From: Geobacteraceae bacterium
Lineage (GTDB): Bacteria; Desulfobacterota; Desulfuromonadia; Geobacterales; Geobacteraceae
DNA: 64,000 bases
Assembly (NCBI GenBank): GCA_024281055.1
Contig: JAMXLF010000035.1
Location: 124,001 to 188,000, forward strand
Direction: 5' to 3'
Shown here: piece by piece, positions 11,806-33,902 of the stretch
Numbering within the stretch: the first letter of the stretch is position 1
Layout of the letters: each line of letters begins with the position of its first letter
Notes under the pieces: generated by a model
Told to the model about the DNA's origin: nothing
What the model saw: only the letters and a program-made list of their open reading frames with translations
Databases searched by the model: none
Program-made: the position numbers and the translations under genes

Positions 11806-13527
11806 TTACGCCTGCGCCAGCTCCCGCATCGTCTGCGCCAGGTAGATGATGTTCACACCGTTCGTGCCGACCGCCTCCACCTGCCACTTGATGGCCCGAA
11901 AACCGGCGGCGCCGCGGGAAAGACGGAACGGCTTGTCATCGGCCACCGATTTCGTGTACTTCAGCACTCCGTCCGCGTAGACGTTGACGGTTACCGGGTA
12001 GGCGTCGGCATAGACCTGGGCCACACTGAGGTTCACCTTGCGGGGAGCAATGAACGGCTTCGAGCGCCAGGTATAGCTGATGCTTCCCGTACCGGCATCC
12101 CAGCGCACGATATCGTTGCCCACCTGGAGGTAAAGGTCGCCGGTCGCGGGGTCGTGATAGCCGGCCGTGGTCACGACGTCCAGGTCCACCAGGTCGCCGG
12201 TCGAGGGGTTGAACATGAACGTCCCGGTACTGGTGAAGCCGACATAGCACCCTTCATACAGGTAGGCATGGAGGGAAGCGGGGTCACGGGCCTGCCAGTC
12301 ATCGCGGGTCATGACCTTGTCGGTGGCGAGCTCCGCACCGTTCACCCCGGCCATGCGCAGCCCGCCCGGCTCGGGGTAGATGACCGCGAAGCCCATATCC
12401 ACCGTGCCGCGCTTCGAGACACAGGCGTAGCCGGTTTCCAGCCGTTCCGGAGGGGAGAGGTTTTCCGGATCCTGCACGGTGATGACATAGGGCGCCCCGG
12501 TCGTGGTAATCAGCACCCGGTTGCCGAAGGCCTCTATCGACACGATCTGGTCGGGCACCGTGACGCGGTAGTTGACCGGCCAGGCATGGGGCATGTAGGG
12601 AACCGACAGGCAGAACTTCTTGCCGGAAAAGCCGGCCAGGCAGCCGTTGGGCAGGGCGCGCAGTCCGGTCAGGTCCGCCGGGGGCGCATCCCACAGGATG
12701 CTGTCGAGCATTTCTCCCAGTGCCGACGCCTCCTTGCTATCCTCGTAGCCGGACGTGGCCACAGCCACCGCGGCGGTATAAAGATAGGCGGTGTCAGTGC
12801 TCCCGGTGTTGGAGCGGAACAACTCCTTGGTCTCGATGTTGTACGGTCCGGTCGGCGCCGTGTCCATGGCGTCCACCTGGACCTTCTGCCCCGGCGCCAG
12901 CACCACCTTCGCCGAGGGAGGGCTGGGCGGCCCGGGCTCGCCGTAGGCCGAGAGGTAGCGGTAACAGTAAACGCGGCTCTCGTACAGGGTCACGTCGGGC
13001 TCATCCCAATGCGTGGCGTCCCAGGCCTCGGGGGTCTCGATATCCTGGTTTGCCATGTAAATCTTGGCGTCCTTGGTAACCAGGTCACCTTCGACATAGG
13101 TTGCCGCCGGATCGTAGGCAGCCGGCGCGATAGCCGTAACGGTCGGGGCGTTCACCGGCGCCGGGATGCCAAGGGCATACGAGTTGTTTGGGTAGTTGGT
13201 GCCGCCGGCCGCCAGAATATCGAGCGGTGCCATCTTCGGGGCGCCGTCCCCGGTCCAGTAGACCCGCTTGAAGGCATCGTCCGCGATCGGGCTCCTCACC
13301 ACGTCCACGTCCTGACCGACCCAATGAAGCCAATACCCCTCGAAGGGGAAGATGGTGCTCTTGGTGCCCGGCTTGGTGGGGGTATTGACCGGGAGGGTGG
13401 AGCGGAATGCCCGCAACGCCCCGGTGCCGAGCTTGCAGTTGCGGGCCAGCGTGGCGGCCGGATCGGGGAGAAGGTGGGGCGCCACCCTGGGAATGATGCC
13501 GGCGAAGGAGGCGAGCTTAACCAGCAT
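11806..13527 (-). CDS. Tail nozzle / stabilisation protein, beta-propeller type, 573 aa
   Basis: Repeated beta-rich units with alternating aromatic residues (VYWTGDGAPKMAP, YLYEGCYVGFTSTGTFMFNPSTGDL, LYLQVGNDIVRWDAG) indicate a propeller-like tail protein. Its place after the adaptor gene fits T7 gp12-like nozzle proteins, which seal the podovirus tail and bind fibres. Near residue 137 there is one copy of the same YDPAATY...W-D-A-T-H-W module seen twice in the fibre gene at 7205-9895. The start overlaps the adaptor stop by 11 bp. Confidence 0.65.
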   Translation of the reverse strand: MLVKLASFAGIIPRVAPHLLPDPAATLARNCKLGTGALRAFRSTLPVNTPTKPGTKSTIFPFEGYWLHWVGQDVDVVRSPIADDAFKRVYWTGDGAPKMAPLDILAAGGTNYPNNSYALGIPAPVNAPTVTAIAPAAYDPAATYVEGDLVTKDAKIYMANQDIETPEAWDATHWDEPDVTLYESRVYCYRYLSAYGEPGPPSPPSAKVVLAPGQKVQVDAMDTAPTGPYNIETKELFRSNTGSTDTAYLYTAAVAVATSGYEDSKEASALGEMLDSILWDAPPADLTGLRALPNGCLAGFSGKKFCLSVPYMPHAWPVNYRVTVPDQIVSIEAFGNRVLITTTGAPYVITVQDPENLSPPERLETGYACVSKRGTVDMGFAVIYPEPGGLRMAGVNGAELATDKVMTRDDWQARDPASLHAYLYEGCYVGFTSTGTFMFNPSTGDLVDLDVVTTAGYHDPATGDLYLQVGNDIVRWDAGTGSISYTWRSKPFIAPRKVNLSVAQVYADAYPVTVNVYADGVLKYTKSVADDKPFRLSRGAAGFRAIKWQVEAVGTNGVNIIYLAQTMRELAQA

Positions 13528-14224
13528 TGGGTGCCCCCTGCTGCGGTGCCTTTTTCGCCAGGGCCAGCTCGTTCACCTGTTTGGCGCCCAGGGCAGTACG
13601 GAACGCGTTGTAGAACATGAGCGCCCGGTTGTCGCTGCCGTCCTCGCCGTCTTTCAGGTAACAGCGGTAGAGGAGGTAGTCGAGAAAAGCGTTCTCGTAG
13701 ATGTCGTCGAGCAAGCCGGCGCCACCCAGGGCGTTCACGTTCGTGTATGAGGAAAGATTTTCGTCTGCGTAGTCGATGTCGGCGGGTGGTATATAGGTTA
13801 CGGCCTCCACTTTAGAGGGAGAGGAGGGCTGGGGCGGGTAGACGTAGAAGGTTTTCGGGTCCAGCGGATCACGGGTGAAGTACTTGACGGCCGCTGCCGG
13901 CGTGGTCGTGTGCCAGTCGGGAATGGTGGCGTCGAGCACATCGCGGGAGACTTCCTTGATTGCCCGCCCGGGGGTGGCGCCATCGACGCCCATGTTGCGC
14001 ACGAGCCCTCCAAAGCCGAGGGCGGTGGCGGAGATGGTCTGTTTCGTCCCGGCCACAAGTTCCATATTGCCGTTCGAGGGGAGCGCCGTGGGCTTCAGCA
14101 GCACCAACTCCTTGCCGGCACTGTTTAGCCAGCCGATCAGCTCCTTCAGGGTCCAGCTGGCGTGGTCTTCATCCTGCAGAAGAGCATCGAGCTTCTCAAA
14201 AAGCTGCTTCACCGTGGTGGGCAT
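13517..14224 (-). CDS. Head-tail adaptor-like protein (DUF6682-like), 235 aa
   Basis: The mainly helical N-terminus (QLFEKLDALLQDEDHASWTLKELIGWLNSAGKELV) and the DPLDPKTFYVYPPQ segment are characteristic of the phage adaptor family that joins the portal to the tail in podoviruses. The C-terminus ends in a helical stretch with many Tyr residues (AFLDYLLYRCYLKDGED). It is preceded by a 19-bp hairpin (14241-14259) and the ribosome site GGAGGT, and followed directly by the nozzle gene, the order expected for a short-tailed phage. Confidence 0.7.
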   Translation of the reverse strand: MPTTVKQLFEKLDALLQDEDHASWTLKELIGWLNSAGKELVLLKPTALPSNGNMELVAGTKQTISATALGFGGLVRNMGVDGATPGRAIKEVSRDVLDATIPDWHTTTPAAAVKYFTRDPLDPKTFYVYPPQPSSPSKVEAVTYIPPADIDYADENLSSYTNVNALGGAGLLDDIYENAFLDYLLYRCYLKDGEDGSDNRALMFYNAFRTALGAKQVNELALAKKAPQQGAPNAG

Positions 14225-14287: not shown

Positions 14288-14905
14288 TCAGTCCCCATAC
14301 CCTTCGTTGATGGCATCCGCCACGGCCTGCTCGTCGGCCATGGCCTTGGCCGTCAGCACCTGGTCGACCTGGGATGTCACGATCGCGACAAAGGCCTGGT
14401 CGGCTACCACCGCCAGTCCCTCCTTGAGCACCGCAAAAGCTCCCTCGGCATAGACACCATCGAAGGTGCCCCAGAACGGCAGCTCATCATCCATGAGTGC
14501 CGGCGCTGCCGGGCGGACGAAGGCCGGGAGGAGCATGGTGTAATCCTGGTCGGCCGGCGGGTAGATGGCCATGCTGCGCCCCTTCACCCTCTGCCAGCGC
14601 GGCACCCCGGGCGTGCTGAACACGGAAAGGGTCAGGTCGGCATCGGCCGGCAGCGGAAATACCTTCCCCTGTCCGGTCACCGTAGGGAGCCCGTCCGGGG
14701 CAAAGTAGTTGTCGGGCACGGAAATGCTCGTGGCATCCTTGGCCACGTCGACCGGGATGGTCTCCTTCACCAGGTCCGAGCGCTTCAGGAGCAGCCGGTT
14801 CACGATGATGCCGTGCACCGAGGCCACCGCCTCCAGGATCGAGCACTGCGGCCGCCCCTCTCCCAGTCGGGGGATTACATTGTCAAGTACGTCTTCAACG
14901 ATCAT
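14288..14905 (-). CDS. Phage head-completion or adaptor-type protein, 205 aa
   Basis: The start overlaps the stop of the methyltransferase-glycosyltransferase gene (ATGA). The protein shares layout with the neighbouring adaptor: a helical N-terminus, a beta-rich middle with VPDNYFAPDGLPTVTGQG and YPPADQDYTMLLPAF, and a helical Ala-rich C-terminus. That pattern is common in connector proteins. No catalytic motif is visible. Confidence 0.6.
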   Translation of the reverse strand: MIVEDVLDNVIPRLGEGRPQCSILEAVASVHGIIVNRLLLKRSDLVKETIPVDVAKDATSISVPDNYFAPDGLPTVTGQGKVFPLPADADLTLSVFSTPGVPRWQRVKGRSMAIYPPADQDYTMLLPAFVRPAAPALMDDELPFWGTFDGVYAEGAFAVLKEGLAVVADQAFVAIVTSQVDQVLTAKAMADEQAVADAINEGYGD

Positions 14906-16560
14906 TTGCGCCTCCAGTTGCGGTAAACTTTGGCCACCGCCTCATAGATGGCGGCCGGAGAAATGTTGTACGCGCAGAGAGCGGCACCCGTGTGGAAGCG
15001 GTCTTCCCTCAGCGCATCGGGGGAGAGTTCCCGGCATTCCCGGATGGTCGCCTCATCCAGCGCGCTCAGGGGGAGGGTCTTTTCCGTGCAGAACTCGCTC
15101 CCGTAGTGGAGGAGATGACAGGGATGACAGGGGCAGTCCTCCGGCGTGAGCGCCTGGGTGTTGGTCCAGTGCTTGGTCAGATTGTTGGCCGAGGAGTGCG
15201 ACAGGTAGATGACCTTGTGCACCTGGTCATCCATGCCGACGGCGTTCAGCACGCCAGTTTCCGGCCCGACGACGCAGCGGCACTGTTGCGCCAGTGCAAG
15301 CGTATCGCGGATGGACATCTGCCCCGACAGGCACACCACCCGCTCTTCCCTTTGCCAGCCCTGTTCCAGCACACGGCATGCGTCATCACCGACCAGGAAC
15401 ACCCGTGCTTCCGGCATTTCAATCATGATCCGGGCTATCACGGCATCCATATGCGGCATCGCCTTGTGCATCGATGAGCCGGATAATGCCCACATGATGT
15501 TGAACGTAGCGCACTGGTTGTAATCGCCGATACCCGTCCGCGTCCTTGCGTTTTCCAGCTCATTTTCGCTGGCGTAGAACAGCCGGCACGGCTTAAACGG
15601 CACCCCGGCCAACTCCGCCGTCCACTCGTGGTAGTTGGTGTTCATCCGCTTCTTGCGGACCTCCAGGGGCCAGGCGTGGTTCGTGCGCCCGGGCAGCGCC
15701 AAAAGGGTCCCCTCGATCGACTCCGACAGGTTCACGAAGCGGTTGAAGCGCCGGGCCTGCTCGCGCCAGAACGCCACGAGCTCGTTGTTCGGCACCTGAT
15801 CCTGGTCGAGAATGTACCAGTCATCCACGTGCGGATCGTGGCGGATGATGTCCCGCCCCTTCGGGGTCGTCATCACCGTCACATGGTAGCCCTGCTCCTT
15901 CAGGCGCGGGAACACCAGGGAGGCCTGCAGCATGTCACCGAAACCGCCGAAGCGGCAGACACAGGCGGTCTTTTTCTGCGGCTGCGAATCTTTGTCCATC
16001 ACGACATAACTGCGACCGATAATCGCGTCTTCGATGGCGTTCTTACGCCACACCTCGAAGATGGAGTACTCGTTTCCTTCCCCGCGTTCCTCGCACTCGA
16101 TCTGGGTCCAATCGAAATTGTCGCGCATCACGTTCGATGTGATGAGGCGTGCAATGTCCCCCGGATAGATATCATGCTTGTGGTCGGGATTCGCCCCCGG
16201 CTCCCCGCATTTGGGATAGAGGTTGGCAGAAGGGACGTAGAGCACGAGGTACCCGCCGGGTTTGATCACCCTCCCCCACTCTGCCAGCGCCTTCCCCATG
16301 TCCTCCATGTGCTCCAGGACGTGGGAGGAAAACACGAAGTCCATGGAGCCGTCGGCAAACATCGACAGGTCGCAGGCGTCGGCCACGATATCCGCGGCAC
16401 CCCTGCCGAAATGGTGGCCGTTGTCCACGCCGATGAAATGCGGGTAGGCCTTCTCCATGCCGCAGCCGATCTCTAACCCTCTCCCCCGGGTGTACCGGGG
16501 GATCAGGTATTTGATCTTGCGCGATTCAAAGCCGCAGGAAGTCTCGGGGGTCCAGGCCAT
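14902..16560 (-). CDS. Fusion of a SAM methyltransferase and a GT9-like glycosyltransferase, 552 aa
   Basis: Residues about 1-170 form a class I SAM methyltransferase with the glycine-rich motif LEIGCG (about 29-34), the acidic VADACDLS region and the post-motif HVLEHM (about 80-86). Residues about 195-550 resemble the heptosyltransferase/GT9 family (GT-B fold), with an N-terminal nucleotide-like loop CRFGGFGDMLQASLVFPRL cut by a turn and the acceptor/donor motif GPETG near residue 433. The start codon overlaps the preceding stop (TAATG). The gene lies inside the capsid-to-adaptor run, so it is expressed late. It may modify a virion protein or host glycan during assembly; the substrate is not known. 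Confidence 0.75.
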   Translation of the reverse strand: MAWTPETSCGFESRKIKYLIPRYTRGRGLEIGCGMEKAYPHFIGVDNGHHFGRGAADIVADACDLSMFADGSMDFVFSSHVLEHMEDMGKALAEWGRVIKPGGYLVLYVPSANLYPKCGEPGANPDHKHDIYPGDIARLITSNVMRDNFDWTQIECEERGEGNEYSIFEVWRKNAIEDAIIGRSYVVMDKDSQPQKKTACVCRFGGFGDMLQASLVFPRLKEQGYHVTVMTTPKGRDIIRHDPHVDDWYILDQDQVPNNELVAFWREQARRFNRFVNLSESIEGTLLALPGRTNHAWPLEVRKKRMNTNYHEWTAELAGVPFKPCRLFYASENELENARTRTGIGDYNQCATFNIMWALSGSSMHKAMPHMDAVIARIMIEMPEARVFLVGDDACRVLEQGWQREERVVCLSGQMSIRDTLALAQQCRCVVGPETGVLNAVGMDDQVHKVIYLSHSSANNLTKHWTNTQALTPEDCPCHPCHLLHYGSEFCTEKTLPLSALDEATIRECRELSPDALREDRFHTGAALCAYNISPAAIYEAVAKVYRNWRRK

Positions 16561-17012
16561 TAGCTTTTCCCCTGCAGGTCAAGTTGCTTGTCGACTTCGG
16601 ACTTTTTCCCCTTGTCCTTGTTGGCGGTGTCCGTTCCAGACCCGGCAAGCTGCGCCTGCAGGTCGGCCACCAGGCCGTTCAGCCGGGCAATCTCCACGTT
16701 GGCGCTGTCAAGCTTACCCTGCACCTCTTCAACGGCCGCGTTCCCATCCTCGGCCGTCTGGAGCTTCAGCCGGTCGTTCTCCGCCTGGAGTCTGGCGTTC
16801 TGCCGCCGCTGTTCCTCCAGGTCCGACATCAGCCTGCCCACGTTCGCATCCGCACCGCTCGCCATCGGGATGTGTTCGGGAATCTTCACATCCTCGAAGC
16901 CCGGCAGCTCGTTTTCGTCGCTGTCGAAGAGGATGCCGTGCTGCTCGAAGCGGGCTTCCGCGTGGCCGTAGATTTCGCCGAAAGGGCGATTCCTGTCCAG
17001 TTTCCTTGCCAT
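16560..17012 (-). CDS. Coiled-coil late phage protein, 150 aa
   Basis: The start at 17012 was chosen for its AGGAG site six bases upstream; five extra codons are possible. Residues about 60-125 form a strong heptad-repeat coiled coil (LMSDLEEQRRQNARLQAEND). The ends are charged and flexible. It lies between capsid and methyltransferase genes and could be a head decoration, spacer or assembly protein. Confidence 0.65.
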   Translation of the reverse strand: MARKLDRNRPFGEIYGHAEARFEQHGILFDSDENELPGFEDVKIPEHIPMASGADANVGRLMSDLEEQRRQNARLQAENDRLKLQTAEDGNAAVEEVQGKLDSANVEIARLNGLVADLQAQLAGSGTDTANKDKGKKSEVDKQLDLQGKS

Positions 17013-17045
17013 CTGTATCTCCTTCACAGTGAAATGTGAAATCCG

Positions 17046-17287: not shown

Positions 17288-18235
17288 TTACGCTGCCGAG
17301 TCCCACTTGACGATACGCTCGTCGGCGGCCGACAGGCGGTTCTTGGCGAAGCCGCCCAGGTAGTACCAGGCCACCCCTTTGGAGCGGCCGTAGTCGCCGG
17401 GGATCTTCCCGCGGACCTCTTCCGGTGTCGCGATACCCTCGGAGGTGGCGTCCTCCCCGAAGAAGAAGATAAAGCCCGATTTCCCCTGACCCCAGTTGGT
17501 ACCCTTGGCCACGTTGGTCTGCTCCACGTAGCGGGTGTTCTCGTAACGGCCGATTTCGCCGTTGAGAATCAGCTGGAACCCGGACTCGGTGTACTGGTGG
17601 ACACCTTCCAGGTCGTTCTTGAACTGCCGCAGCGTGGTCGGCCAGGCCAGGGCCATGTAATCGTCGCCGATGTAGGGCGGGATATTCCGCTCCTTCATGA
17701 TGTCGACGATGGCCTTGGCGTGGTTCTTGTTGTACGCCACGGCGTTGGTCGCGGTGGCGGTACCGTTGGTGGTGAGCGTCACGGCCGCGGTATCGGTACC
17801 GGCGGTCGGCGCCACGCGCAGCAGCGTCGTGTTGTACTGGCCGGCCACGCCCAGGTCGAACGCCTTCTTGGCGTCGTTCTTGAGCGCCTTGTTGACGATC
17901 TCGCGCACCGGGATCTCCGAGAGGTCGTCCAGCACGCCGGTGTAGGGGACCGAGTTGCCGTATTCACCGATGGTCATCGTCCCCTGGGTGATGGTGAAGT
18001 TGGTTTCCGGCATGGTGTTCGTTTCCACCAGGGTGGTACCCTGGGTGGCCACGTCGGAAAAGACGTCCCAGGTGAAAATCTGCCCCTTGTTCTTGCCCAC
18101 CGCATCCTTGATATCGGCGAACTGGCGGAATTTCACCATCGGCTGCACCACGTTGCGCAGCTCCTTCGAGAGGTTTTTCGACGACAGATAGCCGCCGACA
18201 GAGTTGGTTACCCAGACCTGTCCTGCCATGTTCAT
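17288..18235 (-). CDS. Major capsid protein, N4-gp56 family, 315 aa
   Basis: The sequence carries features of the N4 gp56 family of HK97-fold capsid proteins: the DLSEIPVREIVNKAL helix, a central GDDYMALAWPTTLRQFK segment and the C-terminal EVRGKIPGDYGRSKGVAWYY. Length is typical for the family. It follows the scaffold gene and has its own upstream hairpin (18244-18262) with GGAGG ribosome site, consistent with high expression. MNM at the start gives two possible initiation codons six bases apart. Confidence 0.9.
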   Translation of the reverse strand: MNMAGQVWVTNSVGGYLSSKNLSKELRNVVQPMVKFRQFADIKDAVGKNKGQIFTWDVFSDVATQGTTLVETNTMPETNFTITQGTMTIGEYGNSVPYTGVLDDLSEIPVREIVNKALKNDAKKAFDLGVAGQYNTTLLRVAPTAGTDTAAVTLTTNGTATATNAVAYNKNHAKAIVDIMKERNIPPYIGDDYMALAWPTTLRQFKNDLEGVHQYTESGFQLILNGEIGRYENTRYVEQTNVAKGTNWGQGKSGFIFFFGEDATSEGIATPEEVRGKIPGDYGRSKGVAWYYLGGFAKNRLSAADERIVKWDSAA

Positions 18236-19714: not shown

Positions 19715-21811
19715 CTATGCCACCGCCTGACTTTCGAAGCCGCTCATCATCCCCCGGGTCGGCCGGGCCGGGAACATGGGCGAAGTGTTCTGCGGGATCA
19801 TCGCCGCGGCCGGGATGGCCTGCTTTCCCACGTCCGGGAAGATCGGGGGCGCATCCTGGTCCACGAAACCAGCGCTGCCGGCGATAGCATCGGCCACCGG
19901 CATGACGCCCGGCACGGTCACTCCCACCTGTCCGGTCTCGATGGCTGCATACAGCGCAGCTACCCGCCCCTGCATCGCCTTTACCTCGTTAAGAATCGTC
20001 TCGGAGTCGAGCTTCTTCACCTGGGCCGCGACCACTTCCGGCGGGTTCTTGGCCTTCAGCGCCTCCTCCAGCTGCTGAATCTGCTGCATCAGTTTCATCA
20101 GGCGGGGATCCTCGCCGTCCTTTGCCTTCACCAGGAAGCGGGCGCCGTCCTTGTAGCCGCACTTGCCGAAGATCTCCTTGGCGATCTCCTGCTCCTCCGG
20201 AGCAAGCGGTCGCTTCAGGAAGTCTGTGCCCAGGATGGCGGTCAGCGCCTTCATGGCGAAAATGAACCGCTCCAGCTGGGTTTGTGGGTTCACCGCCCCC
20301 ACCCCGACGTTGACGGTGAGGATCACGTCCTGCATGATCAGCGCCTCGATGGCTTCGCGCAGCTGGGCGAGGTCCACGCCGGCCTTTTTGGCCGCCAGGT
20401 TCAGGAGCTTGTCGTTCGTCTCGCAGGCCTGCTCCAGCACGATCAACTGGCGCAGCACCGGTTCAACCCAGGTCTCGGAGAAGGTCCGCAGCTGGTACTC
20501 GCTCACCCGGCTGGCGTTGGAATCGAGGAGCTGCATCCCCCCCACCGTCTCGTTGAGGCGCCGGTTGGTGGCCACGCTCGACCCGGAGAAGGCGCCGGCC
20601 AAGTCGTCAAAGTCGAGGTTCAGTCGGTCCTGTTCCTGGTAGGAGGAGGCGGTGGCGTCATCGGTGGTAACCACGCGCACGTCGTTCACGTCGTCGGCCA
20701 GGGTGACCGAGGCGGGGATGTTGCGGGTGAGGCTCCGGAGGTCGACGTTCTTGCCGCGGGCCACGATGTAGCGCTTCTCGTTGGCGAGCCGCACCGCCTG
20801 GCGCCGCTCGTTGGCCACATCGTTTATCTCGGCCTGCACCTCGCGGGTGAGCGACGCGACGCTCGATTTGTACGCCTTGTGGGCCTCCAGGATGGTGAAG
20901 CCCACCACCACCGGCCGCCCCTGCGGGTAGCGTTCGGTCACCTCCACGGGGTCCGACAGCATCGCCTCGGTCCCCAGGGTGAAGTAGACCACATCGATGC
21001 CGTCGATCCTGACGAAGTTCTCGTGCACCCACACGATGGTATAGTCCGAGTCGGCCGTGTTCGCCTGCTTGGAGTCCACCCCCTTCGCTTCCCGGGCGAG
21101 CCGGATGGTGTCGCTGCTGTTCTTGGCCGCCGAGAGGATCTTCGACTTCGCGTAGACCCGCCACTTGCCGTCCGCCATGCGGGCCTGCACATCCTTCACG
21201 TACATGGGCCACTGGATGATGAAGTAGGGGGAGGAGTCCACCGGATCGCGCCAGTCAGCGGCCGGGTCGAAGCGGTAATTCTCGATCGGGAGAAGGCGAA
21301 TCTCCGGGCGGTCCTTGTCCGTCAGCCAGTCCTGGTGCGAGGCCACCACGCCGATCGCGTCGCACTCCTGGTAGGCGCCGATACAGGTGATGAACCACGG
21401 AATGCCGTGGGGTTTCGGCATGGTGAGCCGCCGCTGCAGGAGCGTCTTGTGGAACACCGCCGCCGCCTGCTGAAGCGGGTCGTCATCGTCCTCCGGACGG
21501 ATTGCTACCACGTCCTCGGTCGAGAAAAAGGCAGCCGCGGCCGTCGCCTCGTTCTTCCGGATGGTGGCGCGGGTCTTCGGGCGGAAGAGCTTCGAGCGCA
21601 GCCGGTAGGCATCGGTGAAGTACTTCGACCCCTCCGGGTGCTCGCTCTGGAACTGGCGGATGTCCTGGATGATGCGAATGCGTACCGCCGTGTCGAAGTA
21701 TGTCGAGGACGAGGTGTAGGCATCGCTCGCCAACCGCAGCCAGAACGGGTCATGGTTACCGGTGGCGCCCTGGGAGGCCTCCGTCTCCTTCACTGCAGCT
21801 TGCTCCCTCAT
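19715..21811 (-). CDS. Portal protein (podovirus type), 698 aa
   Basis: The N-terminus (FDTAVRIRIIQDIRQFQSEHPEGSKYF), the central stem-like helices and the long Glu/Gln-rich C-terminal helix around residues 570-620 fit the large P22/N4-type portal family. The portal forms the dodecameric DNA channel at one capsid vertex. It sits between terminase and scaffold genes. The Pro/Met-rich tail after residue 650 may be exposed. Assignment rests on sequence style, size and gene order. Confidence 0.8.
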   Translation of the reverse strand: MREQAAVKETEASQGATGNHDPFWLRLASDAYTSSSTYFDTAVRIRIIQDIRQFQSEHPEGSKYFTDAYRLRSKLFRPKTRATIRKNEATAAAAFFSTEDVVAIRPEDDDDPLQQAAAVFHKTLLQRRLTMPKPHGIPWFITCIGAYQECDAIGVVASHQDWLTDKDRPEIRLLPIENYRFDPAADWRDPVDSSPYFIIQWPMYVKDVQARMADGKWRVYAKSKILSAAKNSSDTIRLAREAKGVDSKQANTADSDYTIVWVHENFVRIDGIDVVYFTLGTEAMLSDPVEVTERYPQGRPVVVGFTILEAHKAYKSSVASLTREVQAEINDVANERRQAVRLANEKRYIVARGKNVDLRSLTRNIPASVTLADDVNDVRVVTTDDATASSYQEQDRLNLDFDDLAGAFSGSSVATNRRLNETVGGMQLLDSNASRVSEYQLRTFSETWVEPVLRQLIVLEQACETNDKLLNLAAKKAGVDLAQLREAIEALIMQDVILTVNVGVGAVNPQTQLERFIFAMKALTAILGTDFLKRPLAPEEQEIAKEIFGKCGYKDGARFLVKAKDGEDPRLMKLMQQIQQLEEALKAKNPPEVVAAQVKKLDSETILNEVKAMQGRVAALYAAIETGQVGVTVPGVMPVADAIAGSAGFVDQDAPPIFPDVGKQAIPAAAMIPQNTSPMFPARPTRGMMSGFESQAVA

Positions 21812-22328: not shown

Positions 22329-22459
22329 CGTTTCGGCTCCACGAACCGCCGCCCGTTGGAAAATTCGTAGGACGGGTGCTCCTCCTCGGTCGTGTCGGCC
22401 GCCTTCACCGCCTGGGAAAACAGGATCGAGGAGGAACTTACCTTGCTCTCGTCAGCCAT
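22325..22459 (-). CDS. Very small translationally coupled phage protein, 44 aa
   Basis: The ATG at 22459 overlaps the terminase stop (TGATG), with GGAGGT about six bases upstream. The product begins MADESKVSSSSILFSQAVK and ends in a basic tail. It is flanked by coupled genes on both sides. No family recognised. Confidence 0.55.
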   Translation of the reverse strand: MADESKVSSSSILFSQAVKAADTTEEEHPSYEFSNGRRFVEPKR

Positions 22460-24093
22460 CACGCCACCTCCGGCTCCAGACACCGCTCATCGATGATGAC
22501 CGGCGGTTTGTAATCCATGTCGTAAAGCCTCGAACAGCAGTCGAGGAAGTCGTCATGCTTCGAGAAGGGGTACACCATGTACTCGTCGAGGAACATCTTG
22601 TTGAGGCTGTAAACGTTTCCCTCGTGGTCCCGGCGCTTGGTCGGCTTCAGGATTCGGTAGGCCTCGCCCCGCTGCCGGCACTCAAGCTGCCGGGACGTCT
22701 CGTAGGCTTCCCACTTGCCGGGCGATACCTCCCGCATGGTGATGGCCGCCAGATAGAACTTGGCATGGCCGAAGTCGGGAACCAGGCGCTGGATGCGGTC
22801 AATTTTCGCCGCCGGCGTATCCTGCGGCCAATTGAGCTCGGTGATGGGGAAGGCGCCCACCTGAAGCATCTTCTCCTCGAAGTACTCCAGGTCCGACTTC
22901 ATCCCGAACCGCTCGTAGCCGACGAATACCGCCTGCACTCCCGGTTGCGCCAGCCAATGGCGTCGAAGCCCCAGCATGGCGGTCCAGCGCTCCTGCAGGT
23001 TCATCTTGTGGCAGTAGCCGTCCAGCAGATACTTGTTGCGGCTTGCGTCCACCCCGATGACCGCCATGGCCGTCCGGTCGCTCCCCTTCTTCTTGGAGCT
23101 GGCCGGGTCGACCAGGATGTAGACATTCAGGGTGCCAGGCCGGATGTCAATGAACCGCAGCTCTTCTTTCCTGAACATCGCCTCGTTGCCGGCGGTCGGG
23201 TTCTGAAGCATCTGAGCCGACAGGGTGAGGCGCTGCGTGATCTTCGTCTCCTCCCACACTTCCTGCGAGAGAAAGACCGGCTTGCCGTTGGGCGTCCCGT
23301 CGTGGGTGGCCGGGTAGATCCGCGGCTTCAGTATCCCCCGCTCCATGATTTCGCCGTAGGTGTCGGCGAAGGAGTACCGGGTGCCGATATGCCAGCGCCG
23401 CCGGGAGTGCGGCGATTTGAGGTTGTCAGAGAGCTCCCAGCACTCCGTGGTCTTTTGCACCATTTCGGGAGTCGTCACACTCTCCCGGGTCACCACGTCG
23501 TCATACACCCGCAGGCCGAAGTGGCTGCCGATGGGTTGGCCGTCCGTAAGGCCGTGCGCCTCGATCGTCCCTTCCTTCGGGTTGGTCCGGCGCTTGACAT
23601 CAATGCGGTTCTGGGACCAGATAGCTCCGGCCCGGGGAGCATCGAGCCGCGGATTCCGCCACAGCACATCCGGGTAGGTCTCCTTCAGCTCCTCGTTGTT
23701 CTCGAACTCGGTCTTCACCTGGCCGAGGAGCTTGATGGAAAGACCCTTCACGTGGCAGAGGTAGGCAACTGTCAACTCCGGGTCTTCCAGGACCTCCTGG
23801 ATGACGCCGGCAAAGGAGATGATGGTCGACTTGTAATGGAAGCGCGCCCACAGGTCCAGGTGCTCATCCGGATCCGCCTCAACCTCCCGGCACCGTGCGT
23901 ACAGCCAGGGGTCGATGGCATCGGGTCGGTGCAACAGCACCGTGAGCAGATAGTACCGGTCGCAGCGCCCCAGGGCCGCCTTGCCCCTGACGCCGAACTC
24001 TTCGATAACCGCTTGCCAAAGATCGACTACCTTATCAAACGGGGCGGACTGTATGGCCTGAACGATATCAGGAGGGAGTACCAGCCGCCCCAT
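22459..24093 (-). CDS. Terminase large subunit, 544 aa
   Basis: The packaging ATPase-nuclease shows a non-standard Walker A-like segment (ARFHYKST, about residues 84-92), Walker B VYDDVV (about 198) and the RNase H-like nuclease with ILVDPASSKK (about 329) and KHDDFLD (about 516). Replacement of the usual GxGKT glycines by RFHYKS is known in several viral terminases. It follows TerS with a 26-bp overlap and precedes two tiny coupled genes and the portal. It cuts and pumps phage DNA into the procapsid. Confidence 0.9.
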   Translation of the reverse strand: MGRLVLPPDIVQAIQSAPFDKVVDLWQAVIEEFGVRGKAALGRCDRYYLLTVLLHRPDAIDPWLYARCREVEADPDEHLDLWARFHYKSTIISFAGVIQEVLEDPELTVAYLCHVKGLSIKLLGQVKTEFENNEELKETYPDVLWRNPRLDAPRAGAIWSQNRIDVKRRTNPKEGTIEAHGLTDGQPIGSHFGLRVYDDVVTRESVTTPEMVQKTTECWELSDNLKSPHSRRRWHIGTRYSFADTYGEIMERGILKPRIYPATHDGTPNGKPVFLSQEVWEETKITQRLTLSAQMLQNPTAGNEAMFRKEELRFIDIRPGTLNVYILVDPASSKKKGSDRTAMAVIGVDASRNKYLLDGYCHKMNLQERWTAMLGLRRHWLAQPGVQAVFVGYERFGMKSDLEYFEEKMLQVGAFPITELNWPQDTPAAKIDRIQRLVPDFGHAKFYLAAITMREVSPGKWEAYETSRQLECRQRGEAYRILKPTKRRDHEGNVYSLNKMFLDEYMVYPFSKHDDFLDCCSRLYDMDYKPPVIIDERCLEPEVA

Positions 24094-24703
24094 GTGTCAC
24101 CGCCTTGAACCTGCCGCGCAGGCTGTCCAGCTTCGCCGCGTCATCCGTCACGCCGACAGCGCCCGAGTGATTCAGGTTGGCGTTCAGCTCCACGCACTCC
24201 TTCTGCATGCCGCCGATCTTCGCTAGCTCCACCGATGACTGGTGCCGGGTGGGAACCTTCACGAGGGTCCTGACGCCGTTCTTTGTCGACACCTGCTCGA
24301 ATTCGAGGATGGCAGCCGCCCGTTCATCCAACTGGTCGAACGGCTTCACGTTGCCGTTCGCGTCCAGGTAGGTCCGCCGGTCCACTTCCATCACGTCGAG
24401 ATGGTAGTTGATCACCGTGGCAGCCACCCGGCGACGCGCTTCCGCCGCAAGTTGCAGGATGCGGGCGCGGACCTTATCATTCCTTAACAACCGCGAAGCA
24501 CCAGATTCCGCGGCCTTGTCCGACACGTCCGGGTAGGCGAGCTTGTACGCCTTCTTGGCGTTGATCCCCCCTTGGAGGACGTAACGCTGGCAGAACTGTT
24601 CCTGCTGCGCGGGCAGGACGATGATCTCGAAACCCAGGATCGACTCGAATCCCGGGATGACCATCTGTCCCGTCAGGTTGCTCTGTTCCGCTTCAGTGCT
24701 CAT
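24068..24703 (-). CDS. Terminase small subunit, 211 aa
   Basis: Residues about 30-95 show the terminase small-subunit pattern (PAQQEQFCQRYVLQGGINAK, then KLAYPDVSDKAAESGASRLL), a helix-turn-helix DNA-recognition domain. The C-terminal half should mediate oligomerisation. The start at 24703 was chosen because it lies downstream of the promoter-like TACTAT and upstream of no better ATG; an upstream extension would read through the regulatory element. It is the first gene of the late operon. Confidence 0.85.
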   Translation of the reverse strand: MSTEAEQSNLTGQMVIPGFESILGFEIIVLPAQQEQFCQRYVLQGGINAKKAYKLAYPDVSDKAAESGASRLLRNDKVRARILQLAAEARRRVAATVINYHLDVMEVDRRTYLDANGNVKPFDQLDERAAAILEFEQVSTKNGVRTLVKVPTRHQSSVELAKIGGMQKECVELNANLNHSGAVGVTDDAAKLDSLRGRFKAVTHGAAGTPS

Positions 24704-24714
24704 GTTTCCAGCGA

Positions 24715-24768
24715 ATAGTACAACATGGGAACCAACGCAAGAAAAAAATGTTCGTAGTCTCTCCGAAC
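24715..24768 (-). promoter_or_regulatory. Late-operon promoter with upstream 19-bp operator (copy 1 of 2)
   Basis: On the minus strand the string CATGTTGTACTAT (24715-24727) contains a -10-like TACTAT just before the terminase small-subunit gene. About 30 bp upstream lies the 19-bp interrupted palindrome GTTCGTAGTCTCTCCGAAC (24750-24768). Both parts recur at 5900-5934. Position directly after a terminator and before terminase suggests the start of late transcription, perhaps activated by a phage protein as with Mu C. Confidence 0.6.
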
Positions 24769-24773
24769 GGCAC

Positions 24774-24799
24774 AAAAAAAGGCGGGGAAAATCCCCGCC
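24774..24799 (-). terminator. Rho-independent terminator of the middle operon
   Basis: On the minus strand GGCGGGGA and TCCCCGCC form a perfect eight-base stem with a three-base loop, followed by seven T residues. It closes the leftward middle transcript after the gene at 24807. Confidence 0.9.
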
Positions 24800-26766: not shown

Positions 26767-26913
26767 TTACCAGGTAACGGTATAGGTCAGCACCGCCGCC
26801 GACAGCCAGTAGAGCATCTTGCGCCACTCATGCCACCCCTGCATGCCGTATCCGATAGCCGCCAGCACGTCCAGGGCGATCAGGAGGGTAGGGAAAAACT
26901 TCGTCGTCAGCAT
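26767..26913 (-). CDS. Small membrane protein, 48 aa
   Basis: The ATG at 26913 overlaps the end of the radical-SAM gene by seven bases, with GAGG upstream. One or two hydrophobic segments are visible (FFPTLLIALDVLAAIGYGM and MLYWLSAAVLTYTV). Its size would suit a holin-like or regulatory membrane peptide, but its position in the middle operon is not typical for lysis. Confidence 0.55.
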   Translation of the reverse strand: MLTTKFFPTLLIALDVLAAIGYGMQGWHEWRKMLYWLSAAVLTYTVTW

Positions 26914-27701
26914 CGCTCGATAACCTCCCGGATGGAATCCTTCCACCGCACCTTGTCGAGCCCGAACCGACATATCTCGACTAACTTCAGGATCGAGGCG
27001 TCATCCTGGAGGTGCTCCACCATCCTGACCGCCGCGGCCACCGCCGGTCGCTTCATGTCGCAGCGCAGCCGGGCCTTGTTCATCCGGCCGATCCAGATGG
27101 TGTCAGTCACCAGCGGATACACCGCCCGCAGTACCCTGATGGCCTCTTTCCACCCCGCCAGCATCGGCTCGATAGAAACGCTCGTCTTGAATCCTCGCTC
27201 GTGCGCCAGCTGCAGCGCGTCGAAGCGCTCCAGGAAGAGCGGCGCCCCCGGCTCCCAGAAAAGCAGGTCGCTGTCCATGGTCGAACCGATCGTGAACCGG
27301 AACAGTACCTGGTCGCGGTAGGGGGCGAAGGCATCCGTAAGCTGCCTGATGGAGTCTAAGCGCGGCTTGGTCGTAATGAGCAGACGGTTACCCTTCGCGA
27401 GCATCACAAGGGCGACACGGACGAAATGCGGCAGGTAATACGGGGTAATATCGTGGGTCGATGGGAACATGATGACGCCGTCACGCGCCGGGAAGGAGGT
27501 GATGTCGGCATTAGCCGAGAGCTGCTCGTGGGACCACTGCGAGCGCTTGCGCCAGGCACCATAGAACGGGTTCGCCGCCATGGCCGCCGCGTAGCAGTAG
27601 AGACAGTCGTTCGCGCATCCCTTGCCGATATTGAAGTTAGTCTCCGCCCACTCGCGCGTACCGGTACCCGACCGGGCGTGGTCAAACGTTTCCTTGCTCA
27701 C
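26907..27701 (-). CDS. Radical SAM protein, spore-photoproduct-lyase-like family, 264 aa
   Basis: A GTG at 27701 preceded by AGGAGGGTAGTT is the best start, though the frame opens 8 codons earlier. The CxxxCxxC cluster motif CANDCLYC lies at about residues 27-35, followed by a YCYAAAM-type segment and a TIM-barrel-like chain with LLITTKPRLDSIRQL and SIEPMLAG, the pattern of SPL-like and phage Gp37/Gp68-type radical-SAM proteins. It should bind a 4Fe-4S cluster and SAM. The substrate in phages is unknown. Confidence 0.7.
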   Translation of the reverse strand: MSKETFDHARSGTGTREWAETNFNIGKGCANDCLYCYAAAMAANPFYGAWRKRSQWSHEQLSANADITSFPARDGVIMFPSTHDITPYYLPHFVRVALVMLAKGNRLLITTKPRLDSIRQLTDAFAPYRDQVLFRFTIGSTMDSDLLFWEPGAPLFLERFDALQLAHERGFKTSVSIEPMLAGWKEAIRVLRAVYPLVTDTIWIGRMNKARLRCDMKRPAVAAAVRMVEHLQDDASILKLVEICRFGLDKVRWKDSIREVIERC

Positions 27702-27726
27702 AACTACCCTCCTGGAAAACATCAAT

Positions 27727-28050
27727 TCAGTTCATTCGAGCCATCTTGTAGCAGCTCTTCTCGATCCTCTCCAGCGCGTCAGTAAAGCCGCATACCCGCC
27801 ACGGTTTTCCGTTCACATCGATGCGGTAATTATTCTTGCGTGTGCCGGGATGAAAAGTGAGCACCTCGCTCTTGCCGGTCATTAGGTTCTCGAACGTCAG
27901 CCGATACATATCGGCGGGAGGATCGGGCGGAATCGGTTCGTCGGCAAGCGAATCGTGATATGCATCCCATCTTGCCTGAGCTGCCCGACTCGCCCGGTCA
28001 CTTCTCTCGCGTTTCGCTTGCGTTGAACGATACTTACGCCAGTTTGGCAT
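27727..28050 (-). CDS. Small basic phage protein, 107 aa
   Basis: The product starts MPNWRKYRSTQAKRERSDRA, a basic helical segment that could bind nucleic acid, and continues into a beta-rich half (YRLTFENLMTGKSEVLTFHP). It lies between the two radical-SAM genes and may be co-transcribed with both. No family recognised. Confidence 0.6.
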   Translation of the reverse strand: MPNWRKYRSTQAKRERSDRASRAAQARWDAYHDSLADEPIPPDPPADMYRLTFENLMTGKSEVLTFHPGTRKNNYRIDVNGKPWRVCGFTDALERIEKSCYKMARMN

Positions 28051-28084
28051 AATTCAAAACTTCCTAAGTTGGGATAATGCCTTG

Positions 28085-28954
28085 TTATAAATTCATTGCG
28101 CTATGGCCTTCGGCCAGTGGTTTCCAATGTGCATCGTATTCCGTGGCGATGATTGCCGCCCTTGCCCTTGTCCGCTGCCATGCTCCCCAGCCCGGACCCT
28201 TCCGCCCTTCCTTGCCCTGGTACGCCATCGCCTGCGGCAAGAATCCGGCGTGTATTGTCTCGACGATCCGTCGCTCTGCCGCCTCGAACGTGTCTTTCGG
28301 CCAACCAACGAGCACATAAGCCCGTAAACCATGCGCTGCCGTTGTCCATCCGGCATCCCGCAACATCTCGCCAGCACGTTGCAGGGGCTCCAAATCATCC
28401 GGGGTGTCGTAGGCAAAAAAGACCTGCTTCGGTCGCAGTTCGCGGAGAGCAGCAACAAACCATTCCTTTTCAATCATCCGCTTCGCTTCCAGCCCACCAG
28501 TGAATTGCAGCGGTTGCCGAAACGCCTTCTTCGCCCGTTTCGCAGAGGCTAGCACGGCCCGGATATGCTCGTCAGAGCAGGCCAGCAGGTTCCCGGTTAC
28601 GTGATTGTAGCCTTCCCGAATCGGTATTTCCCGAATCGGTTTCTTTGCCTCGCAACAAAACCAGCAGGCATTTGGGCAGCCCCTCGAAGTGATTGTGTAG
28701 CCGTGCTTCAGGTACATTCCAGGGACGAACTCCCCGCCAATATCTCCCGTTGCTGGTCCGCCAATCATCGTCGGAGCCACCGGAGCCCACGCCGCCGCCA
28801 GCTTTTCAGCCCGTGCCAGGTCATAGCTGAACGCCACGGAGACATGCACCTCGTCGGCCTCGTCGAAGAGTGTCGGGGCGCAGTTGATCCGCACCAGATC
28901 GTCAATCGGTGTGGCCTCTGTTCGTCGCGGAAATACTCGGATGATCCGTTTCAT
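28085..28954 (-). CDS. Radical SAM protein, 289 aa
   Basis: The start at 28954 has AAGGGG upstream. The CxxxCxxC motif (CPNACWFC within SRGCPNACWFCCEAK) is at about residues 88-97. The N-terminus resembles the cobalamin-like or dimerising lead domain of B12-type radical-SAM proteins, with GGPATGDIGGEFV, and the C-terminus has GLRAYVLVGWPKDTFEAAE. Two different radical-SAM enzymes in one phage middle operon is uncommon. Modification of phage DNA or tRNA is a possible role, not shown here. Confidence 0.7.
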   Translation of the reverse strand: MKRIIRVFPRRTEATPIDDLVRINCAPTLFDEADEVHVSVAFSYDLARAEKLAAAWAPVAPTMIGGPATGDIGGEFVPGMYLKHGYTITSRGCPNACWFCCEAKKPIREIPIREGYNHVTGNLLACSDEHIRAVLASAKRAKKAFRQPLQFTGGLEAKRMIEKEWFVAALRELRPKQVFFAYDTPDDLEPLQRAGEMLRDAGWTTAAHGLRAYVLVGWPKDTFEAAERRIVETIHAGFLPQAMAYQGKEGRKGPGWGAWQRTRARAAIIATEYDAHWKPLAEGHSAMNL

Positions 28955-29045
28955 ATGCCCCTTCGGGTCACGCCTTCGGCGGCGCAATGAATTTCTAACC
29001 AAACATTCAAGCGGGCTGGTGAGGCCCGCCGCTTAACTCAAGCTG

Positions 29046-29782: not shown

Positions 29783-30085
29783 CTAGCACTTGACCGCATC
29801 ATAGCGCCAGTCGTTTTCATGTCTGGAGCCGGTATCGCGCCGCTTGTTCGGCTTGCGAATGACACTGAACCGGCCATGTTTGCTGCACTCAGCTATGATC
29901 TCGACCTTTGCCACCGTTACCCCCTCGCCAGCTTCCCCCTGACGCCATTCATCGCATACACGCCGCGAATTGACCTGCAGCTGAACAATATCGCATCTCC
30001 AGCCGGCAAAGGAATTGCGCTGCCGATTGGCGCAGGTGCCGCAATTGACCCGATCATCCAGGGCTATGCGGAAAGCAGCCGCCAT
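29783..30085 (-). CDS. Cys-rich phage protein, probably truncated by an amber codon, 100 aa
   Basis: The start overlaps the Gam-like stop (TAATG). Residues about 15-45 hold a Cys site (CGTCANRQRNSFAGWRCD, then RVCDEW), followed by a second Cys pair (AECSKHG... DAVKC). The stop is TAG, and the next codons in frame encode KCPWW and a plausible tail. A GTG with GAGGGGG upstream near residue 56 could be a separate start, so the region may be two fused cistrons. Confidence 0.5.
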   Translation of the reverse strand: MAAAFRIALDDRVNCGTCANRQRNSFAGWRCDIVQLQVNSRRVCDEWRQGEAGEGVTVAKVEIIAECSKHGRFSVIRKPNKRRDTGSRHENDWRYDAVKC

Positions 30086-30624
30086 TACGCCGCTTCCTCC
30101 TCCATCTCCCTTTCCTCGGCATCCCCCAGGAGCGCATCAACCAGCTTGTCGATCTCATTGCTCGTCGGCTGGATCACCACACCATCACCGGTCTCGCTCA
30201 CGGTAACGCCGAGCTTCTTCAGCTTATCAGCCGGGAGCCGTGCCAGGTTCTTCTTGATCGGCTTCTCGGTGGTCTTGATGTAGAGGAGCCGCTCTTTCTC
30301 ATCGGTGAACATGGCCTTGATCCGTTTGAGCACCATCTCTTCGGAGTCCCAGGAGAGTTTACCGACAAGCTTCTTGAAACCGACCACGATCCCCGCGATG
30401 ATACGGGTCTTCGGCTTATTGAACAGGCCGCGGCTCTCGGCCACCGCCATGTGAAGCGCCTGCTTCCTGCGCGCCGCTTCCTCAATGGCTGCGCGGATCC
30501 CCGGCATCTTCTCATCCTTTGACTTCTTGATTTCCTCGTTGAGGAGCCACACCTGGTTCTTCAGCTCTTCCCGTGCTTCCTCGTACTGGTTTGTCAGCCC
30601 CTCGATTCGTGCCATTGTTGCCAT
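30085..30624 (-). CDS. gam: Gam-like host-nuclease inhibitor, 179 aa
   Basis: The protein has the Mu Gam architecture: an N-terminal coiled coil (about residues 5-60), then a short beta segment GLFNKPKTRIIAGIVVGFKK, and a helical Lys-rich C-terminal half with YIKTTEKPIKKNLARLP and KKLGVTVSETGDGVVI. Length is close to the 174 residues of Mu Gam. Gam coats DNA ends and blocks host exonucleases. It is encoded between GemA-side genes and the middle region, which matches the Mu early order loosely. Confidence 0.7.
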   Translation of the reverse strand: MATMARIEGLTNQYEEAREELKNQVWLLNEEIKKSKDEKMPGIRAAIEEAARRKQALHMAVAESRGLFNKPKTRIIAGIVVGFKKLVGKLSWDSEEMVLKRIKAMFTDEKERLLYIKTTEKPIKKNLARLPADKLKKLGVTVSETGDGVVIQPTSNEIDKLVDALLGDAEEREMEEEAA

Positions 30625-30654
30625 GCATCTTCTCCTTTTATTGATGCGTTGTCC

Positions 30655-30682
30655 GTAGGGGCGACCGGCCGGGCACCCCTAC
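30655..30682. repeat. REP-like palindrome, GTAGGGGCGACCGG family
   Basis: GTAGGGGCGACCGG followed by its near-complement ending CCCCTAC. The same family occurs at 31716, 42931, 43418-43468 and 46372, in both prophage and host. Confidence 0.75.
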
Positions 30683-30687
30683 ACCAT

Positions 30688-31047
30688 TCACGCCGCCTTT
30701 TCCGGTTCCTCGGCCGGCTCGGTGTCGAGAAGCATTTGCCCGAGAAGACGGGGAAGGCTGATCCGCTTCAGCCGCGCTTCCTGCAAGAGGCTGGTCATGG
30801 CCCGGGAGCGGAGAAAGGCGCAGGTCGACGTGATGTCCGCAGCGGAGCCGGCCAGGTAATAGCCGGTGTTCGGATGGCCGCAGATAGGCACCCCCTGCAT
30901 GCGCAGGGCGGTGATATGCGTGCGCAGCGTCCTGAGCGCCACCGGGTTGTCATCGCCGGTGATCTCCCGCGCCAGGTCCTCGGCCCGGATGCCGCTGCTG
31001 CTCCCCTCGTGTTTCCGCAATGCCTCTAAAACGTCGCTTCCATTCAT
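30688..31047 (-). CDS. Winged-helix-type regulatory phage protein, 119 aa
   Basis: Residues about 1-60 show a DNA-binding helix-turn-helix pattern (DVLEALRKHEGSSSGIRAED, then NPVALRTLRTHITALRMQGV), where the recognition helix is followed by a GYYL wing. The C-terminal half is helical. It may control early or middle transcription. It lies between the Gam-like gene and small membrane or zinc proteins. Confidence 0.6.
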   Translation of the reverse strand: MNGSDVLEALRKHEGSSSGIRAEDLAREITGDDNPVALRTLRTHITALRMQGVPICGHPNTGYYLAGSAADITSTCAFLRSRAMTSLLQEARLKRISLPRLLGQMLLDTEPAEEPEKAA

Positions 31048-31071
31048 CTTCCGCCCCCTTTTTAAACCGAA

Positions 31072-31215
31072 TTATGACAGTGAGCCGCCCCGTTCCAGCC
31101 ATGCATCAAAACCCTGCCTGCAGTCGAGGCACTTTGTGTAATCGTGCCCGGGCATGCCGAAACCGATACAAGCGTATGAGGGGCCGAATCCTCTGATTTC
31201 TCCGCGAATGTTCAT
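31072..31215 (-). CDS. Possible separate small Cys protein, 47 aa
   Basis: This is the C-terminal part of the 132-codon frame, with its own ATG at 31215 preceded by GGAAGGTGGC. Its start overlaps the stop of the 49-codon gene (ATGA), which supports independent translation. The product contains CLDC and ends in DAWLERGGSLS. Confidence 0.4.
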   Translation of the reverse strand: MNIRGEIRGFGPSYACIGFGMPGHDYTKCLDCRQGFDAWLERGGSLS

Positions 31216-31470: not shown

Positions 31471-31688
31471 ATCCGTGCTCCTTCAACCCGCCGCGCCATT
31501 CCCTTACCACCTAAGCCGAGTTCGGCCCGGGTCGGGCGGCGCAGCTCGAAATTGCGGTAAATGCGGTGGCTGCAGAGAACACATTTTACCGAGGTCACCT
31601 CGTCTTTGAGCGGGTTCTCCCGCTCGGCTATGAACGGGCCGCCGCACGAGCAGCGCGGCCACCTTTCTTTCTTCGCACCATCATCCAT
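31467..31688 (-). CDS. Small zinc-ribbon phage protein, 73 aa
   Basis: Two Cys pairs are visible, CSCGG near residue 13 and CVLC near residue 36, spaced as in zinc ribbons. The C-terminus is basic. ATG 31688 has GGAGGGCACGGGA upstream. It overlaps the next gene by four bases (ATGA). Confidence 0.6.
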   Translation of the reverse strand: MDDGAKKERWPRCSCGGPFIAERENPLKDEVTSVKCVLCSHRIYRNFELRRPTRAELGLGGKGMARRVEGARI

Positions 31689-31704
31689 TCCCGTGCCCTC
31701 CTTA

Positions 31705-32549: not shown

Positions 32550-32584
32550 GTTTTTCTCCTTTCCTGATCCCGAGTTCCCGATCC

Positions 32585-33892: not shown

Positions 33893-33902
33893 GTTCGCCC
33901 CC

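Follow-up and report, generated by a model that had tools for sequence, protein, structure and literature searches.

The glycosyltransferases (GTs) of CAZy family GT9 (Pfam: PF01075; RfaF/WaaF, WaaC), the class I methyltransferases (MTases) and the glycosylation of phage virions are each known separately. In the account of PMC4358343, the GT-B heptosyltransferase TibC is able to modify a protein and possesses a catalytic Asp-110 and a phosphate-binding Lys-230. Among phages, the capsids of the mycobacteriophages Che8 and Corndog are reportedly glycosylated by phage GTs, and virion glycosylation in a few mycobacteriophages is described as shielding the particles from antibodies (PMC12363180). 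Our analysis concerns a prophage gene that encodes a class I S-adenosylmethionine (SAM) MTase fused to a GT9 domain (MT-GT). It lies on a stretch of 64,000 nucleotides from a Geobacteraceae bacterium (GenBank: GCA_024281055.1, contig JAMXLF010000035.1, positions 124,001 to 188,000), hereafter called the window. One enzyme family, represented by this gene, keeps the slot between capsid and connector genes in three head modules. Among the open-licence titles and abstract beginnings listed, no capsid-linked MT-GT9 phage enzyme is described, and the matches listed report no activity, substrate or donor sugar for the fusion; the capsid-linked MT-GT9 family, its presence in three head modules and the lack of tblastn matches in isolate phages likewise have no description there.

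A first-pass annotation of the window had proposed an MTase and a GT9-like transferase in a single frame, a view that Pfam and the comparison of an AlphaFold2 model with GT9 and class I MTase structures both uphold. Its placement of the gene at 14902-16560 is correct and is completed here by the strand, minus, which had been missing. The open reading frame (ORF) begins with ATG and contains no internal stop, and a fusion ORF with full-length homologs in many contigs is far above chance. The model has a mean predicted local distance difference test score (pLDDT) of 75.1 and a predicted template modelling score of 0.62. In the MTase part, motif I (EIGCG, residues 30-34) and the acidic motif II are intact, with G32, G34 and D46 present, followed by SSHVLEH (78-84) and NPDHKHD (124-130); across the relatives, G32 is found in 115/115 sequences and D46 in 110/115. 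The match to Methyltransf_11 is strongest over residues 58-107, residues ~2-183 of the model align with class I MTase structures, 3dli scoring highest (Z 15.8), and a PHROGs scan of the fusion protein returns a generic methyltransferase only.

The GT domain of the window protein, taken alone, has no match in Pfam, so that the family assignment needed its relatives: nine of the 15 aligned ones match PF01075 (Glyco_transf_9) at E<=0.1, the best at 9.7e-8. Residues 196-551 of the model align with the GT9 structures 3tov (Z 22.3) and 1psw (RfaF, Z 21.9), and further with WaaC (Z 19.1-19.2; 2h1h 19.1) and TibC (Z 18.9); the two-lobed GT-B fold of RfaF/WaaC is present over residues 197-551. Because a profile of 15 GT domains yields only marginal matches to PDB sequences (best 0.051, 3tov), the GT9 assignment rests on the fold comparison together with matches to cellular proteins, which the GT profile reaches in 23 other genomes out of 277 searched in the host class (E<=1e-10, best 5.5e-13; named GT9 from their motifs by eye). 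The domain carries the motifs GGFGD209, GSSMHK366 and GPE434TG and the cysteines 478, 481, 491 and 529. D209 aligns with the GD of the GT9-like cellular proteins, K366 with the Lys of 1psw, and E434 with the Asp of the cellular D-S/T-G motif; in motif order, D209 and K366 correspond to Asp-110 and Lys-230 of TibC, and we read them as their likely equivalents in TibC/WaaC. All seven residues are kept in 117 or 118 of 118 GT sequences, the exceptions being two ORFs of one broken locus (L129). At the sugar-site motif D-S/T-G the phage family has Glu in place of Asp: Glu434 occurs in 117/118 sequences, with one gap, and Asp in the 14 cellular alignments listed. Residues 196-552 are confirmed as an intact GT9 (heptosyltransferase-type) domain. 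The loss of catalytic residues, which the first-pass annotation had named as the sign of a remnant, did not occur in the window or in its relatives, and the remnant explanation is rejected on this residue conservation. An insertion of ~27 residues (window 14992-15087, residues ~492-523) lies between the third and fourth conserved cysteines and has no counterpart in the 11 remaining members of alignment A1.

Compared with the CAZy family, the phage protein shares with RfaF/WaaF and WaaC the GT-B fold over the whole domain, the GD motif, the Lys aligned with 1psw and the four-cysteine cluster near the C-terminus, which also occurs in cellular relatives; it differs by the fused class I MTase, by Glu for Asp and by the location of its gene near capsid genes. 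The autotransporter heptosyltransferases TibC/AAH, as PMC4358343 presents them, are alike in the GT-B fold, the four C-terminal cysteines and the presence of an extra N-terminal domain; this domain is a beta-barrel there and an MTase in the phage enzyme, and the protein acceptor, known there, is putative here. Moreover, their partner is an autotransporter, whereas the scanned neighbors of the fusion in the window encode parts of the phage head. TibC has a four-Cys iron finger; four cysteines are present in 117-118 of 118 phage GTs but are common to other GT9-like proteins: the cluster is seen in 10 of the 14 cellular alignments listed, and the other four end before it. Hence, a four-cysteine knuckle as proof of a TibC-like protein GT was rejected.

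The mycobacteriophage cassettes likewise combine phage GTs with an O-methyltransferase. In Corndog's relative Firecracker (Corndogvirus, gp33-36), the TylF protein gp33 stands beside the GT-like gp35 and gp36, between portal and capsid, and in Che8 (gp108-110), gp108 is a single GT2-TylF polypeptide. TylF is common to these cassettes and to some MT-GT loci, and, as in phage systems of virion glycosylation, the GT gene of our family sits with head and tail genes. However, the mycobacteriophage GTs give GT2/GT25-type Pfam matches (some below cut-off) rather than GT9, their MTase is TylF rather than Methyltransf_11, their hosts are mycobacteria, and glycosylation is reported there and proposed here. 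By fold, viral GT9-like proteins were found in BFVD, among them A0A6J7WHE7, named RfaF, from an uncultured phage (E 1.1e-12) and the uncharacterized A0A3T0IIJ9 of Vibrio virus vB_VspP_SBP1 (E 6.5e-6); identity to the fusion is 12-14% over the aligned part. Outside phages, two Caballeronia plasmids (L237:5953-7722, L238:5953-7713) encode MTase and GT9 Pfam matches in one ORF, adjoining a gene with a filamentous-haemagglutinin domain and, in one of the two records, a gene of the ShlB/FhaC family. Only the MTase part of this ORF aligns with the phage fusion (hhalign); it has an extra middle region, and its GT9 match is short. The Caballeronia fusion is a candidate adhesin-modifying enzyme, in which the same pairing stands beside a candidate protein acceptor.

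The linkage to capsid genes is visible from both sides. From the GT side, a major capsid protein (MCP) gene of the SU10 type lies upstream in 67 of the 72 distinct contigs with at least 5 kb of upstream sequence. In the other five (L123, L125, L126, L128, L130), a PF05065 capsid gene is found directly upstream or one small gene away, four of these capsids having been tested with Pfam and that of L123 assigned by homology. From the capsid side, MTase and GT follow in 38/41 MCP loci with at least 5 kb downstream and in 50/54 with at least 3 kb; the capsid-anchored set comprises the best 80 of at least 585 capsid relatives, and the 38/41 concerns capsids that are 62-88% identical. The lambda-like group has a protease-capsid fusion as the upstream gene (PF05065 in 3/3 tested, a weaker PF04586 in two). 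Among 25 loci of the lambda-like search, 20 are of this protease-capsid type and three of the SU10 type, and two begin inside the gene. Protease-capsid fusion and MT-GT occur together in 23 loci (including four GTDB loci used for building the profile), with a median gap of 91 bp; two negative gaps between capsid and GT are explained by called starts inside the capsid ORF. In the lambda-like locus L126, the gene downstream of MT-GT is Phage_attach. L130 and L131 show a capsid gene (PF05065) followed by a small gene, then MT-GT and a gp6-like connector gene, with an S78 protease confirmed upstream in L130. For distant homologs, the capsid gene ahead of MT-GT encodes either a lambda-like protease-capsid fusion or an HK97-type capsid, with no more than one small gene in between. 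The three capsid profiles give no cross-matches at 1e-4.

In the window itself, the first-pass annotation had placed the gene between capsid and adaptor genes with overlapping starts. The overlaps are there: the TAA stop of the upstream 155-residue gene shares one base with the fusion's ATG (TAATG), and the downstream adaptor-like gene begins within the fusion's stop codon (ATGA). The placement needs one correction: one or two small genes, a possible ORF of 86 residues and the 155-residue gene, separate the fusion from the MCP gene.

A single-sequence search for relatives of the fusion found 17 viral loci, and with an alignment as query 441 of 471 stretches were confirmed, of which the best 80 were analyzed; query A5 found no relatives in viral contigs. 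In GTDB, the single sequence found nothing and the alignment 16 loci: Aromatoleum anaerobium (a relative of the prophage is present in strain LuFRes1, L117), metagenome-assembled genomes from Pseudomonadota (13) and Thermodesulfobacteriota (one), and a Conexibacter contig of 3.3 kb, which carries just the MTase part. A tblastn search of 50,697 isolate-phage records revealed no homolog of the GT domain (none at E<=10); the full query matched one record, in its MTase part only, and two other family members used as queries found none. Among the host's relatives, 81 of 97 genomes give a match (own genome included), but the matches listed contain a single full-length homolog, the window's own locus, the others being MTase-domain matches and one GT-part match.

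The two domains are fused in 118 of the 128 distinct contigs or records where a closed ORF matched the GT (loci up to L210, the broken L129 counted as fused), a proportion biased towards fusions, since many loci were retrieved with the fused protein; in the remaining ten, the GT stands apart from a recognizable MTase. Five contigs of one lineage have two separate genes (L139, L146, L150, L151, L176; L150 and L151 look like a single phage in two contigs), and in two further cases (L012/L105 and L181) homing-endonuclease-like ORFs lie between the MTase and GT parts. L015 is a truncated contig, and in L130 and L131 the N-terminal domain has decayed. In the GT tree, all GTs with a gene of their own fall into a single clade with full support, surrounded by fused ones, and fission therefore looks derived there. 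A recent accident as the origin of the fusion is rejected by its frequency and by the tree, and its absence from close relatives, which the first-pass annotation had expected to count against it, was not what the neighborhood search found. The homing-endonuclease-like ORFs (L012:8516-9196, same contig as L105, where GIY-YIG/NUMOD3 is matched; L181:3915-4568, phrog_314) are inserted at two separate places of the tree, and the fused L074 is a close sister of L181. In L121 (3367-5429), the MT-GT fusion is followed by a second, stand-alone MTase copy.

Decay affects the MTase half. Its motifs are altered or lost in L016, L171/L188, L108/L112 and L130/L131, all of which keep the listed GT residues; on the GT tree this amounts to four changes, of which well-supported branches force at least two. 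For the ratio of nonsynonymous to synonymous substitution rates (dN/dS), the 1034 pairs have medians of 0.43 and 0.47. Comparisons that involve the window approach saturation (for window-L003, MTase 0.19 and GT 0.21, at dS 1.35 and 1.17), so only unsaturated pairs were counted. The unsaturated pair L171-L188, with its degenerate MTase, has a GT value of 0.18 and an MTase value of 0.30; for L108-L112 the GT value is 0.33 and the MTase is nearly identical. With several lineages in which the MTase has degenerated or become a separate gene, and some that dispense with it, the central activity of the family looks to be glycosyl transfer.

Further sugar enzymes are encoded near some of the 138 loci (not deduplicated). 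A TylF cluster includes 15 ORFs on 13 distinct contigs or records, two representatives of which match PF05711 (5.6e-19 and 7.8e-16); a GT2 cluster was found in three loci and an FkbM cluster in two, one representative of each having been run on Pfam.

With moderate confidence, we propose that the fusion is a late-expressed, bifunctional virion-glycan enzyme that glycosylates a head protein and then O-methylates the sugar. According to this model, the GT9 domain, expressed late, would use a nucleotide-activated sugar present in the cytoplasm of the host, most likely ADP-heptose or a closely related compound, and attach it to Ser/Thr of a head protein, which would be the MCP or a small protein of the head with a gene beside that of the MCP. 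O-methylation by the fused MTase would follow and cap the sugar, and in some relatives TylF, FkbM or GT2 enzymes might elaborate it further. The phage could benefit by shielding of the virion, by stability of the head or in adsorption. We infer the acceptor, a protein, from gene position alone; late expression, donor, linkage, step order and benefit are inferred as well. The first-pass annotation had left the choice between a virion protein and a host surface glycan as the target. The virion protein is the better supported option, because all three head modules, differently built as they are, have the gene shortly after that for the MCP.

Several observations weigh against this interpretation. 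Glu434 replaces the Asp of the aligned cellular proteins, and the donor may therefore not be ADP-heptose. Heptosyltransferases of lipopolysaccharide (LPS) are GT9 enzymes as well, and the GT2 neighbor in L120 matches phrog_841, 'GtrB-like O-antigen conversion' (6e-5). In two of the head modules the capsids belong to the same Pfam family, PF05065, and the corresponding GTs group as sisters (92/97); the modules are thus distinct but not fully independent cases. Four MCP loci (L147, L162, L168, L203) lack MT-GT, so that the gene is dispensable for building such heads. More distant phages with a homologous MCP, Escherichia phage PTXU04 and Vibrio phage 219E41.1, whose capsid proteins are 48-52% identical to that of the window, have only small unnamed genes in the slot. 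Finally, a mobile cassette or late timing, and not the acceptor, could account for the adjacency to capsid genes.

The main rival is a modification of the host surface, in which the GT9 domain would alter the LPS core or another glycan precursor of the cytoplasm, either in lysogens or at a late stage of infection, and thereby lower superinfection or the re-adsorption of progeny to debris, with the MTase again capping the sugar. We regard it as rather unlikely, though several points favor it: GT9 enzymes are typically LPS heptosyltransferases, the closest solved folds include RfaF and WaaC, and the phrog_841 match in L120 points the same way. Such enzymes need no flippase, since assembly of the lipid A core is cytoplasmic. 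However, the gene trails the capsid gene in three head modules, where we would not expect genes of lysogenic conversion, its codons overlap those of structural genes, and the 23 window ORFs scanned include no match to families of O-antigen conversion.

A cargo gene without a role in the capsid, i.e. a mobile module at an insertion-tolerant spot near capsid genes, appears improbable to us. The spot does vary: where MT-GT would be expected, L168 and L203 have long genes rich in repeats, one of them virion-structural by PHROG, homing-endonuclease-like ORFs occur at the same spot, and L147 (8830-10209) has another GT-like gene (phrog_12406 0.002, weak; no Pfam match) together with an MTase (phrog_6636 6e-12). 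Yet MT-GT is kept in nearly all of the capsid-anchored loci, its active site is strictly conserved, and the unsaturated pair L171-L188 shows purifying selection in both halves. The pair in L147, possibly a non-homologous replacement of MT-GT, argues for a functional substitution and not for random cargo. The capsid-adaptor interval also contains tail-spike-like or long repeat-rich genes (L139:7548-9212, L168:10420-12597 and L203:5620-7803), which suggest that this slot receives genes for decorating the surface.

Two further explanations fare worse. The place among head genes and the near-constant MCP linkage would also suit a fusion protein that is itself a head component, packaged and ejected to modify targets in the next host; but its homology indicates glycosyl transfer to glycan or protein acceptors, and no sign of packaging was seen, although no test was aimed at it, and we give this explanation very little credence. 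Hypermodification of phage DNA, by glycosylation or methylation of modified bases, is the least credible of all: phages do glycosylate DNA bases and the class I MTase fold serves many acceptors, but none of the 23 window ORFs scanned matches hydroxymethylating or base-modifying families, the MTase matches Methyltransf_11 and not DNA MTase families, and the GT9 fold and the place among structural genes speak against it.

Beyond the window, the head-glycosylation model can be extended only tentatively, to a statement that we consider doubtful though not far-fetched: a large and almost entirely uncultured group of phages of Gram-negative bacteria would coat their heads with a methylated heptose-type glycan by means of the MT-GT9 module. 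The module would have moved with or between capsid genes, would be distinct from the mycobacteriophage system, and would be interchangeable with non-homologous pairs of GT and MTase. The family is a common, specific and testable candidate enzyme in phages mostly of Gram-negative hosts, with a near-constant capsid linkage. If the extension is true, glycan-coated heads are widespread in environmental phages, with consequences for immune recognition, phage engineering, stability and adsorption, and a GT9 domain plus MTase behind an MCP gene would serve as a genetic marker for predicting glycosylated virions from metagenomes.

The coordinates of the fusion gene and of its surroundings are compiled in Table 1. 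On the minus strand, the genes follow each other in the order terminase, SU10-type portal, a gene without significant family match, MCP, the 86-residue ORF, the 155-residue gene, MT-GT, two adaptor-like genes and a phrog_511 protein. The genome holding the window measures 4.4 Mb.

Table 1. Features of the fusion gene and its prophage surroundings (window coordinates; E-values of family matches).
Feature	Coordinates	Strand	Evidence or remarks
MTase-GT9 fusion gene	14902..16560	-	552 residues; ORF, Pfam, structure matches, homologs
Class I SAM methyltransferase domain, residues 1-178	16027..16560	-	Methyltransf_11 9.5e-14
Interdomain linker, residues 179-195	15976..16026	-	model pLDDT <50 at 177-194; relatives split here
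GT9 (GT-B fold) domain, residues 196-552	14905..15975	-	PF01075 in relatives, fold, conservation
SU10-type adaptor	13517..14224	-	SU10_adaptor 1.4e-23, phrog_399 3.9e-43
Adaptor-like gene	14288..14905	-	SU10_adaptor 6.5e-4, below curated cut-off
155-residue gene upstream of fusion	16560..17027	-	conserved N-terminus LDRxxPFGxIxG..FEQxG, variable tail
Major capsid protein	17288..18235	-	phrog_1357 8.6e-20
Portal, SU10 type	19715..21811	-	PF23899 4.5e-27
Terminase large subunit	22459-24093	-	phrog_38 2.3e-35 and Terminase_2 2.6e-14, listed jointly with small subunit
Terminase small subunit	24068-24775	-	phrog_38 2.3e-35 and Terminase_2 2.6e-14, listed jointly with large subunit
Gam-like gene	30085-30624		Mu-type transposition
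phrog_296 gene	32585-33892		Mu-type transposition
phrog_310 transposase	34160-35836		Mu-type transposition

The 155-residue gene has no Pfam family above cut-off and no PHROG match. Its tblastn matches are found in 27 loci vs 111 for MT-GT, and small ORFs resembling it, a likeness judged partly by eye, form a cluster of 60, 57 of which lie upstream of MT-GT. The phage is temperate and joins Mu-type transposition genes and a CI-type repressor (30085-38624) to the SU10-like head module. Two radical-SAM-type genes lie near each other in the prophage at 26907-29002 (PF04055 8.7e-8; phrog_9298 2.8e-10).

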